NCBI GenBank assembly: GCA_949298575.1
Contig: CASFXH010000010.1
Span: 1-63,699, forward strand
Length of the DNA stretch: 63,699 nucleotides
Reading direction: 5' to 3'
Source of the DNA: an uncultured Parabacteroides sp.
GTDB taxonomy: Bacteria; Bacteroidota; Bacteroidia; Bacteroidales; Tannerellaceae
Both the position numbers and the translations under genes were made by a program. This document shows, piece after piece, positions 44,992 through 51,492 of this stretch; within the stretch, counting starts at the first letter, position 1; each line of letters starts with the position of its first letter. A model generated the notes under the pieces. It saw only the letters and a list, made by a program, of their open reading frames with translations, was not told the DNA's origin and did no database searches.

Positions 44992-46407
44992 TTATTCAAA
45001 CTTCAACTTCGGTAATCCTTTCACAATCTCCACCGTCTGCACCGACACATTAATCACCCGGAGCAACAGGTTGAAAATATATTTCTCATCGTTATGCTCC
45101 CTCGCCCAATCATTCGGGTCATTGGTAATGCCACTTTTCTTGTCGGTAGTTACAGCATAACGCTCCATTATCCATTCGATGGCGGATTTACCGTTGACCA
45201 CATACTCGTAGGCTTCGGCGGGTATGCCCTCTATGGTGATGGCATGGTTGTAGTGGATGACGCTTTTGTCGACAGTTTTGCTGTCAATCTTGCCGAAGCG
45301 CATTTTCTCCACCCGATAATTGACGCTTTCGCCTTTGTTGGTCAAAGGGGCATGGAGCACGAGGCACTTCTTATAGGTTTCTATCGTTTCATAATTCAGA
45401 TGCAAATCCGCCAGCGCACGTCCGGCTTTGCTGAATGCCCAGAAGTCGTCTGCTTTCTCTACCAAAGGCAGGCGCGGCAAAGACTTTTTCAAGTCGGTGG
45501 CAAAAGCCGTGCGGTAATCGGGCGAATGGAGCAATCCATAGACATAATAGAAGATGTCTTCTTTTGTTACTTTGTAGCCGTATTGCTTGCGGGCGGTTGT
45601 CAGTATCCAGTCGGTCACGCCATCTTTACGGACATAGCAGTCTGCTTTCTTTTCTGCGCCTTGATTGAAGAGGTCTATTACATCTGCATCGCTATTGTCA
45701 TACCAATAGAGTGGGAAGCATTGGGTGTCTCCGATATAGTGCAAATCAGGAATGCAATCTGTTATAGAAACAGATAATCCATTACTGGAACTAACACAAG
45801 ATACACAAATCACAAGATTCTCATGTTCGGGAGTGGGGAAAAGTTTAGGAGAAAGCCCAATACGTTCAATGAAGGGTTTATCGAAATACAATCTCTGTTT
45901 GAAAAATGGGCGATAAATGCTATCTCTTATGTCAAAAATGTAACAGTGTTCTACATTCCTTTCAATATCTTTTTTTAGATTGACCGTCCAACTTATTTTC
46001 GTATTATCCGTATTAATAAACTCTTCCACAGACAAATTGCCATTCCCCTTTACCGCATTCGAATATGCTTCTTTTTGCTTATTATAGAAATCTATCATAG
46101 ACAGCATATTCTTTTCAAGTGTTTGTTGAGAAGAATTATAAACCCAAGCGTCACGGTTCGTTGCTACTCCAATAGCATACGTTTCAAAGAATGCCCTCTG
46201 TCCTTTCGCAAACTTTTTCTCCGGCTCAATCGGAATAAATTGCTTAAACATCTCGTTACGGTGATTTATCCAATCCCCATGCTCATTGGGTTGGATAATA
46301 GTCCAAGGAATACGCTCCACGCTTCCGAACTCGCGGATGATGCGCAGCTTGTCTTCGCGGCTCAGGTAGTCGCCTATATCGTAATAATGTATCTTCGCTT
46401 TGTTCAT
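44992..46407 (-). CDS. Type ISP restriction enzyme, separate target-recognition (C-terminal) part
   Basis: 471 residues beginning AKIHYYDIGDYLSREDKLRII, which in single-chain Type ISP enzymes (LlaGI/LlaBIII type) directly follows the methylase domain. The rest matches the C-terminal specificity region: FAKGQRAFF, DIRDSIYRPFFKQRLYFDK, SITDCIPDLHYIGDTQCFPLYWYD, YVYGLLHSPDYR and the C-terminal AIEWIMERYAV. It should choose the DNA sequence for methylation and cleavage. Here it is its own gene, 1.6 kb from the catalytic half, with an AlbA_2/ATPase gene and operator-like repeats in between. Confidence 0.88.
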   Translation of the reverse strand: MNKAKIHYYDIGDYLSREDKLRIIREFGSVERIPWTIIQPNEHGDWINHRNEMFKQFIPIEPEKKFAKGQRAFFETYAIGVATNRDAWVYNSSQQTLEKNMLSMIDFYNKQKEAYSNAVKGNGNLSVEEFINTDNTKISWTVNLKKDIERNVEHCYIFDIRDSIYRPFFKQRLYFDKPFIERIGLSPKLFPTPEHENLVICVSCVSSSNGLSVSITDCIPDLHYIGDTQCFPLYWYDNSDADVIDLFNQGAEKKADCYVRKDGVTDWILTTARKQYGYKVTKEDIFYYVYGLLHSPDYRTAFATDLKKSLPRLPLVEKADDFWAFSKAGRALADLHLNYETIETYKKCLVLHAPLTNKGESVNYRVEKMRFGKIDSKTVDKSVIHYNHAITIEGIPAEAYEYVVNGKSAIEWIMERYAVTTDKKSGITNDPNDWAREHNDEKYIFNLLLRVINVSVQTVEIVKGLPKLKFE

Positions 46408-46451
46408 AATCTGCTTATCTAACTTATTAATGCGGCATGGCTACTTTTCTT

Positions 46452-51000: not shown

Positions 51001-51492
51001 CAATCCGCGCTGCAATTTTTCCCAATCCACCTCATCCGCTTCCAAGTCAATCAAGTTCAGGCGCGTCACCGGCGGTGTCTGGTTCCGTATGGTCAGTTCT
51101 GCAACGCTGTTCCACTTGTTGGTCGTTGAAATCCAAAGACGTTGGACGAAAGCCTGTTCAATGCCCTCTGCTTCAAATGTCTTGCCCGAAGTAGAAAGAA
51201 AAGTATCCACATCGGCTTTGGTGATATACTTGTCATCGGCATAACACTTGCATTGCACCGCCCAATATTCACCCGCAAAAGTCTTTACCACCAAGTCAAT
51301 GCCCACATCTTTCCCGCCGAACTGGTCGTGACAGGGAAATTCCGTCCATAACCAAACCTCCTCAAATTGTCCTTCATAGAGGGAGGTCGTTTTCAGGTAA
51401 GCCTGCATCAGGCGTTCGAAGCGAAAGCCTTTATCGCGTTCAGAAAAAGCCTTTTGACGGAATTTATCTAACACCTGAACAAATGTCGTCAT
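48001..51492 (-). CDS. Type ISP restriction-modification enzyme, nuclease-helicase-methylase part
   Basis: 1163 residues from the ATG at 51492; a TTG-started extension to 51627 is rejected because a TACATTTG box lies inside it. Domains in order: PD-(D/E)xK nuclease (GGKDVGIDLVV with Asp66, then AVQCKCY with Gln80 and Lys82), SF2 helicase (MACGTGKTF 201-209, DEAH 341-344), helical coupler, and N6-adenine methylase (DPFTGTGTF 918-926, NPPY 1028-1031). It cuts unmodified DNA after ATP-driven translocation in related enzymes. It ends at GSRTPIAITILVKKGE, just where the recognition domain should begin; that domain is the separate gene at 44992-46407. Confidence 0.92.
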   Translation of the reverse strand: MTTFVQVLDKFRQKAFSERDKGFRFERLMQAYLKTTSLYEGQFEEVWLWTEFPCHDQFGGKDVGIDLVVKTFAGEYWAVQCKCYADDKYITKADVDTFLSTSGKTFEAEGIEQAFVQRLWISTTNKWNSVAELTIRNQTPPVTRLNLIDLEADEVDWEKLQRGLYGKASRPKSFSIMEHQQKAVDKVHEYFQTRDRGKLIMACGTGKTFTSLKIAENETGNKGLVLFLVPSIALLGQTLRAWSAQASVPIHAVCICSDGQVSQQKVKNDEDEVSIVDLALPASTNTDYILYQLEAIRREGRGGMTVVFSTYQSIEVISRAQSELLKRTQGGYGVFDLIISDEAHRTTGVSLKGTEESAFIKVHNNEFIQAKHRLYMTATPRLYTDEARKKAEESDVVLCSMDDVSLYGDEIYRIGFGEAVEKQLLTDYKVLILAVGDKDITPALRDVITNEDGTITVDDASKFVGCINALSKRVLGDEGLIKAADPLPMRRAVAFCSTIKASKATAHVFTDCKSAYMEDISAEDKAMMVDVVARHVDGTMSATERDQKLMWLKEQPDNDMECRMLTNARCLSEGVDVPSLDAVVFVSPKNSQVDVVQSVGRVMRRSPGKKYGYIIIPVVIPENVEGDEVLSKHPNFKVVWTVLNALRAHDDRFNAEVNKIELSRQKPKHILFGGVGSAHDDDSVDHSLADATKQDTTSAAMQMAQQLSLQFEDLQNVFYAKMVTKVGSKRYWELWARDIAKIAEEHIERIKHLIADEGKHKRAFEQLMRGLRKNINPNLSEQEVIEMLSQHLIAMPVFEALFGNYEFAVSNPVSKAMQKMLALLDDETKTEEENERLQKFYDYVRTTVGDITDAEGRQRLIVELYDKFFKVASPKTVEKLGIVYTPVEVVDFIIRSVGYIIQKEFGRSLSDENVHILDPFTGTGTFITRLLQSGLIKKEDLIRKYRKEIHANEIVLMAYYIASINIENVFHSLMPDEDYKAFDGICLTDTFQLGEKDSDENLFSEQFPTNSKRVMAQKKCPITVIIGNPPYSIGQKSANDNAQNQSYPSLEKHIETTYVAQSEANLNKSAYDSYVKAFRWASDRIDSRHGGIIGFVTNGAWLDANGLDGMRKCFEQEFSSIYVFNLRGNQRTSGELSRKEGGKIFGSGSRTPIAITILVKKGE

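Follow-up and report, generated by a model that had tools for sequence, protein, structure and literature searches.

The locus described here lies on a contig of an uncultured Parabacteroides sp. (CASFXH010000010.1), of which the whole analysed stretch of 63,699 nucleotides is called the window. It encodes a Type ISP restriction enzyme divided over two genes, with a third gene and a pair of DNA sites between them. Five minus-strand genes follow each other in one row from position 51492 to 43585: the Type ISP first half, an AlbA_2/GHKL gene, the Type ISP specificity part, a gene for a protein of 254 amino acids (aa), and a T5orf172 gene. The first half (48001..51492, minus strand, 1163 aa; an alternative TTG start would lengthen the frame to 51627) displayed the Pfam domains Mrr_cat_2, ResIII, Helicase_C, ISP_coupler, and N6_Mtase, and aligned to residues 30-1149 of LlaBIII. 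The C-terminal specificity domain is a gene of its own (44992..46407, minus strand, 471 aa) with its own start codon; its product covers model positions 2-342 of 342 of Type_ISP_C and matches LlaBIII residues 1155-1575. Since the two alignments end at 1149 and resume at 1155, the break can be placed within about five linker residues, at the border between methylase and specificity domain. Together the halves display the Type ISP domain order (Mrr nuclease, superfamily 2 (SF2) helicase, coupler, adenine methylase, ISP specificity), and the enzyme is spanned by both jointly instead of by a single polypeptide. Judged by its sequence, the locus is a two-gene variant of a Type ISP enzyme and not a standard member, with ATP-driven cleavage and methylation as predicted activities. 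In LlaGI, loops of the methylase domain are also used in target recognition (PMC4872093), which suggests that the second chain is needed but is not the only reader of the sequence.

An earlier note, made from the sequence alone, had given the coordinates, frames, and junctions of the first three genes, the place of the division, the separate intact recognition gene, and the complete gene coupled to the first half; our alignment of both halves and our domain searches agree with it on all of these. As far as sequence tells, the halves are intact and not debris. Each has a single match in its own assembly (3.05 Mb, 96% complete), and the ratio of nonsynonymous to synonymous substitution rates (dN/dS) is low. 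Against the near-identical allele L044 (L numbers denote comparison loci from genome, plasmid, phage, and viral-contig scans) it is 0.17 for the first half (278 codons) and 0.21 for the specificity part (251 codons); against single-chain relatives it is 0.03 and 0.06, with synonymous sites near saturation. These results speak against the remnant or second copy that the note had named as a danger to its own reading. A wider version of this concern is that the enzyme is broken and the locus decaying, as related loci are: L036 has an insertion with a transposase-like gene, L043 has frame breaks, and L044 has deletions. We consider this very improbable for the window, where both parts are full length, conserved, and complete in their domains, the cut falls at a linker, and the specificity part has a start codon; moreover, the same border split occurs in other lineages.

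The gene in the break (46553..48004, minus strand) starts with an ATG that overlaps the TGA of the first half (ATGA coupling). It encodes an MloB-like protein of 483 aa with an AlbA_2 domain, a GHKL ATPase domain (Pfam SLFN_AlbA_2 and HATPase_c_4), and a C-terminal winged helix, the latter seen in an AlphaFold model built from 12 sequences (mean predicted local distance difference test score 86.8, predicted template modelling score 0.70). A plasmid protein with 41% identity to it is annotated as MloB. PADLOC returned weak partial matches at most and NCBIfam no match, and our literature search found no tested function or operator for this family.

The middle gene is separated from the specificity gene by 145 base pairs (bp) of non-coding DNA with a repeat pair, features absent from the earlier note. 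The gap holds two copies of ATGTAACTNNNATGTAACT, for which 0.13 chance matches would be expected in the whole window at up to three mismatches. Each copy is a tandem of ATGTAACT units 11 bp apart. Site 1 is at 46529..46547 (minus strand), and site 2 is at 46452..46470 (minus strand), 77 bp from site 1 and 44 bp ahead of the start codon of the specificity gene. At up to two mismatches, the tandem was found twice in the 3.05-Mb assembly, both times at this locus, and the reversed-pattern control gave one match. If the middle protein regulates through these tandems, it regulates this locus, where the specificity gene is the next one behind them. RNA structure in the gap received no support (z of -0.59).

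Such sites accompany the family of the middle gene. From 72 listed loci (the window, L116-L157, and L189-L217) we kept 62 genes, those in which the BLASTP alignment with the window protein reached the C-terminus, and dropped six with identities of 90% or more, which left 56; genes that were cut, frameshifted, or too distant were excluded from the repeat counts. In most relatives, a tandem of two 11-bp units is found directly past the stop codon, and the same tandem occurs again further on. Pairs of 18-mers matching at 15 or more of 18 positions were present within 200 nt behind the stop codon in 36/56 relatives and in front of the gene in 4/55. Exact 7-mers were repeated at +11 in 34/56 cases downstream and 7/54 upstream, with other offsets from 8 to 14 giving 0-3. 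In one relative (L199), the AlbA_2-type gene is followed not by one tandem but by several successive 11-bp units with core ATTGA, and in another (L123) there is an upstream repeat of another kind.

The separation between the two copies follows an 11-bp ladder. Over the 36 loci it was 55 bp, 64-67 bp (11 loci), 75-78 bp (five), 87-90 bp (11), 98-100 bp (five), 109 bp, 110 bp, and 129 bp, this last being the one exception. A period of 11.0-11.1 bp fitted these values with R of 0.82 (36 loci), 0.85 (24), 0.86 (17), and 0.87 (10) as similar proteins were thinned stepwise, the smallest set having one locus per 55%-identity cluster. Among 2000 random sets, 0, 0, 0, and 1 did as well at the four levels. 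A spacing of whole helical turns is characteristic of two sites that are bridged on one face of the DNA, and two sites in helical phase, as a loop-forming regulator demands, are what we found.

The protein and its site also vary together. The core of the unit differs by locus (TGTGA, TTTGA, CTTGA, ATTGA, or TGTAA), and we tested its association with protein residues in the 28 of the 36 strong loci that had a readable core; the test on close pairs used 26 (L120, mixed, and L149 were left out). Column 449 (window numbering) was the most associated with the core among the columns tested (z of 8.5), and it stayed first when the comparison was restricted to pairs at least 50% or at least 55% identical. 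Tyrosine or histidine at this position accompanies TGTGA, tyrosine followed by proline TGTAA, alanine TTTGA, lysine ATTGA, and arginine, glutamine, or serine CTTGA. Two relatives with 75% identity, L124 and L125, differ in both, with A-A and TTTGA in the former versus Y-A and TGTGA in the latter. In the AlphaFold model, residue 449 lies close to the beginning of helix 446-461, which is helix three of the winged helix at the C-terminus. The 20 loci kept out of the association were those with a weak repeat pair and thus not randomly chosen; nine of them show an 11-bp tandem core. Among the clear cases, four of five were as predicted: L132 (Y-P, TGTAA), L127 and L190 (A, TTTGA), and L199 (K, ATTGA). 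The fifth was close (L134, with A and TTTGC), and four kept-out loci with serine at 449 have TTTGA. Co-variation and model thus suggest that the recognition helix of the winged helix matches the sites.

These results bear on the idea that the repeats are recombination or insertion ends of a cargo cassette and not operators. It is true that the repeats accompany the gene and that one cargo can replace another at the border, as shown below. In most loci, however, the two copies are on the same side of the gene; their separations differ by whole helical turns, and the core co-varies with the recognition helix, so we find this idea hard to credit.

Collectively, these findings suggest that the middle protein most probably controls the specificity subunit as a locus-specific regulator that forms a DNA loop, through which the cell may control the completion of the enzyme. 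We postulate that an MloB-like regulator at the border of a two-gene Type ISP enzyme bridges the paired sites and restrains expression of the specificity gene, a proposal to which we give a probability somewhat above one half (roughly 0.55). The regulator would bind both sites through its C-terminal winged helix and bridge them into a short DNA loop of 77 bp, i.e. seven turns at 11 bp, and this loop would restrain the specificity gene; that it represses instead of activating is a guess. A signal (nucleotide, RNA, or DNA state) that alters binding would probably act through the GHKL and AlbA_2 domains. As long as the specificity chain is held back, the motor-nuclease-methylase chain would be kept off its targets; only after release of the specificity gene would the completed enzyme be able to hold them. 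Controller proteins delay nucleases in other restriction systems.

Several observations weigh against this proposal. We found no sigma-70-type promoter or terminator in the gap, with a tool that does not cover promoters of Bacteroidota; since no promoter was pinpointed there, a roadblock or control of read-through are alternatives. A strong repeat pair is missing in 20/56 relatives, and in many relatives the pair is not followed by any recognised restriction gene, so that controlling the gene behind can be only part of the explanation. As for the code, serine at 449 accompanies TTTGA as well as CTTGA, i.e. two cores, and three loci with tyrosine at 449 (L150, L206, and L215) have no tandem behind the gene. 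Column 346, in the GHKL part, ranks second in association (z of 7.3), and the excess of the winged-helix region is slight (mean z of 1.7 versus 1.3 elsewhere), which indicates that relatedness contributes to the association.

The family of the middle protein is widespread and, as judged from gene neighbourhoods, often linked to restriction. Matches to the protein or its profile were present in 16/324 order-level genomes at E 1e-40 and, with a 20-row profile at E 1e-60, in 26/355 phylum-level genomes. Matches were also present in 93 of 72,556 plasmid records (59 over at least 80% of the length) and 12 of 50,697 phage records (four over at least 80%), in addition to 17 viral-contig loci. Relatives occupy the positions hsdM-gene-hsdS (L120 and L197), hsdS-gene-hsdR (L122, L213, and L214), and GmrSD-gene-hsdR (L208), and an hsdR or HSDR_N gene lies behind the relative in L193 and L119. 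In L124 the relative stands between a Type III-like methylase and a restriction subunit, a mod/res position, and in L116 between DUF1156 and a PLD anti-phage protein. Other relatives are found on plasmid backbones, in a phage, and beside a satellite-phage integrase. Among the 29 relatives (the window included) with a close same-strand gene downstream, that gene is a restriction subunit in 10 and a PLD anti-phage protein in one; five have another or no family (L121, L136, L195, L206, and L212), and 13 are unclassified. These neighbours were picked mechanically, nine of the 29 being assigned by Pfam, six by plasmid annotation, and one being the window's own. In L126, L128, and L130, long imperfect inverted repeats resembling integron attC sites (by eye) follow the AlbA_2-type gene, and thus some relatives may be integron cassettes.

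The same neighbourhoods feed a serious rival to the regulator, namely that the middle protein is chiefly a second-line effector comparable to PrrC. It would be a Schlafen-type RNase that the restriction enzyme or its own ATPase keeps inactive and that cuts RNA when a phage blocks restriction, with the DNA sites merely setting its level or tethering it. The hsdS-gene-hsdR order in three loci fits such a guard, as does PrrC itself, which resides within a Type IC locus and becomes active upon inhibition of the enzyme (PMC12707154, PMC3710099). Residues E21 (46/46), E26 (43/46, otherwise D), K28 (46/46), and D64 (46/49) are conserved, the rest of the 56 rows being gapped there, and they are spaced as E209, E214, K216, and D252 of SLFN11 (PMC9482658). 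In that protein, the first three are essential for tRNase activity and D252A is not inactivating (PMC9482658), so the fourth conserved residue proves little. From these residues, the middle protein may be, or may once have been, an RNase. Against it, the paired sites together with their co-variation argue for DNA binding at a specific locus, and a large number of relatives have no recognised restriction system near them. In addition, neither the best 50 of 771 Foldseek matches (the top one, 3lmm, is uncharacterised) nor the phmmer matches included a Schlafen structure. We hold a primarily effector role to be possible but the weaker bet, and such a guard could hold together with the regulator.

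What fills the break in other loci informs on how closely the middle gene is tied to the enzyme. Among Type ISP enzymes split at the border, L037 carries DUF4365 and a gene without family, L073 carries 23S_rRNA_IVP and RhuM, and L044 carries DUF1016_N. In the shorter branch of the family (methylase and specificity, about 1050 aa), seven loci have the border split: L060 and L064 hold DUF1016 with YhcG nuclease, L063 holds Bro-N, L062 a PIN domain below the curated cut-off, L076 DUF559, L055 a product of 104 aa without family, and L077 a gene that resembles, by eye, the Bro-type gene of L063. The same resemblance was seen in L078, of which the gap gene and specificity gene alone were seen. L044, which is itself damaged by deletions or misassembled, shares 93.9-95.4% DNA identity with the window on both sides of the junction, including the ATGA and the bases that follow it, and then continues with the DUF1016 gene instead of AlbA_2. 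This comparison implies that the same split allele exists with more than one cargo. In total, AlbA_2 occupies 1/4 border splits of Type ISP enzymes (window, L037, L044, and L073) and 0/7 of their shorter relatives, and we reject it as a constant partner of split Type ISP enzymes. Meanwhile, the paired repeats are not a general mark of the slot: of 11 other gaps, seven had no repeat and four (L037, L044, L063, and L073) had one isolated 11-bp repeat, with no pairs.

This variety invites the explanation that insertions are simply tolerated at the linker border, where the AlbA_2 gene would be one of various mobile accessories and would regulate itself alone, with no role in the enzyme. Besides the exchange of cargo within one split allele, it would account for relatives with the same sites that stand alone on plasmids, in phages, or beside other genes, and for the six loci (L126, L127, L131, L190, L191, and L196) with core-like tandems in front of the gene itself. 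It sits less well with site 2 being 44 bp ahead of the specificity gene and with the restriction subunit behind 10/29 relatives, 13 of the 29 being unclassified. We are inclined to doubt a pure passenger, while granting it some weight.

Seen against these results, the observation in the earlier note was right and its interpretation is partly supported. Its comparison of the recognition subunit with a Type I HsdS proved apt, since some of the middle gene's relatives are located between hsdM and hsdS. Its suggestion that separation allows the supply of this subunit to be controlled gains indirect support from the paired sites before the specificity gene and from a core that co-varies with the recognition helix; the regulator, however, is not tied to split Type ISP enzymes. 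The note had named such a lack of co-conservation beforehand as refuting its proposal. Nothing we found shows that the Schlafen-like protein gates the enzyme.

The border split of Type ISP enzymes is rare but recurrent. In four Type_ISP_C surveys (123, 393, 395, and 395 genomes, some of them repeated among surveys), single-chain and split enzymes were counted by eye from the open-frame column, leaving out frames that ended at contig edges or had frame breaks. The matches listed there include at least 36 frames of 1500 aa or more and at least two border splits in which each part is complete (the window and L073, from G1187). A scan of named-species genomes gave 21 loci, of which 12 had one chain of 1516-1692 aa, one was a complete border split (L037, from a Planctomycetaceae metagenome-assembled genome), one a degraded split (L044), and the remaining seven were cut, broken, or partial. 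It is on these two sets of counts that we call the split rare. In a 19-row tree of first halves, the window falls inside a fully supported clade of single-chain enzymes, the nearest being 92% identical. L037 and L073 are placed elsewhere, L073 adjoining a single-chain Flavobacterium enzyme (100/99), and some forks between the two lack resolution. The tree suggests that the border split probably arose more than once. In the shorter branch, the seven splits are L055, L060, L062, L063, L064, L076, and L077.

Other rearrangements were seen around Type ISP genes. Extra fragments of specificity domain lie downstream of such genes in one bacterial family (L085:8370-8873, L089:5655-6142, L090:5547-6050, and L074:3092-3617). 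All start near the equivalent of residue 305 of the window's C-terminal part, and from their sequences they look like silent cassettes for exchanging the second half of the specificity domain. In Paraprevotella xylaniphila (L036:1016-10897), several kb with a transposase-like gene among them interrupt the specificity domain at about residue 175. In L032:3187-6249, three genes follow a single-chain Type ISP gene, and the last of them starts, by eye, like an AlbA_2 protein of another subfamily.

Two further genes complete the row in the window. The 254-aa product (44235..44999, minus strand, from the list of open reading frames) overlaps the specificity gene by 8 bp and displays N-terminal hydrophobic stretches by eye; it had no match in Pfam, PADLOC, or NCBIfam. 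The final gene (43585-44226, minus strand) encodes a T5orf172 protein by Pfam and matches the PADLOC candidate family PDC-S57.

Single-chain restriction enzymes are usually treated as units; as seen in this locus and its relatives, they can be divided at one border. Accessory genes use that border as a slot, and some are of types that have been reported with Type I operons. The family-wide pair of sites, the 11-bp spacing rule, and a readable protein-DNA code mean that the function of the middle gene can be asked by a simple binding or reporter experiment. A bolder and quite speculative extension is that self-contained MloB-like looping switches move between Type I, Type III, and Type ISP operons, each with a phased operator pair and a code of one or two residues, inserted ahead of a needed subunit, and joined in the same chain to a Schlafen-type nuclease. 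Loss of the DNA-bound state would then free the subunit and arm the RNase.

Parts of this arrangement have counterparts in known systems. LlaGI and LlaBIII (PDB 5ffj and 4xqk) have the same domains in the same order but are single polypeptides, while here the enzyme is spread over two genes, separated by a third gene and the paired sites. The separate recognition protein is reminiscent of the Type IIB enzymes BsaXI and BcgI, which consist of a nuclease-methylase protein and a recognition protein; these are not Type ISP, and, as far as the cited accounts go, a gene in the gap is not described for them (PMC11997821, PMC4027205). Accessory genes between restriction subunit genes are represented by PrrC and other genes embedded in Type I loci (PMC3710099, PMC12707154), RhuM-like genes and PrrC being among those reported with restriction-modification operons (PMC3710099). 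PrrC, an ABC-ATPase/HEPN anticodon nuclease in these sources, belongs to another protein family than the middle protein. The Type I repressor RptR is, like the proposed regulator, linked to restriction and binds direct repeats; as its source portrays it, RptR is a small protein acting on TAGCTA palindromes in a promoter, with no paired phased sites and no AlbA_2 or GHKL domain (PMC12255303), and we rejected it as the same regulator because both protein and site differ. Another parallel is MloB of C. jejuni, annotated as a transcriptional regulator (PMC9769813). The locus numbers in that source place mloB (cj1552c) between hsdM and hsdS, and it thereby shares with the middle gene the position between methylase and specificity genes. 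The two are likened here by name and gene order alone, and in the window the position is found within a Type ISP enzyme.

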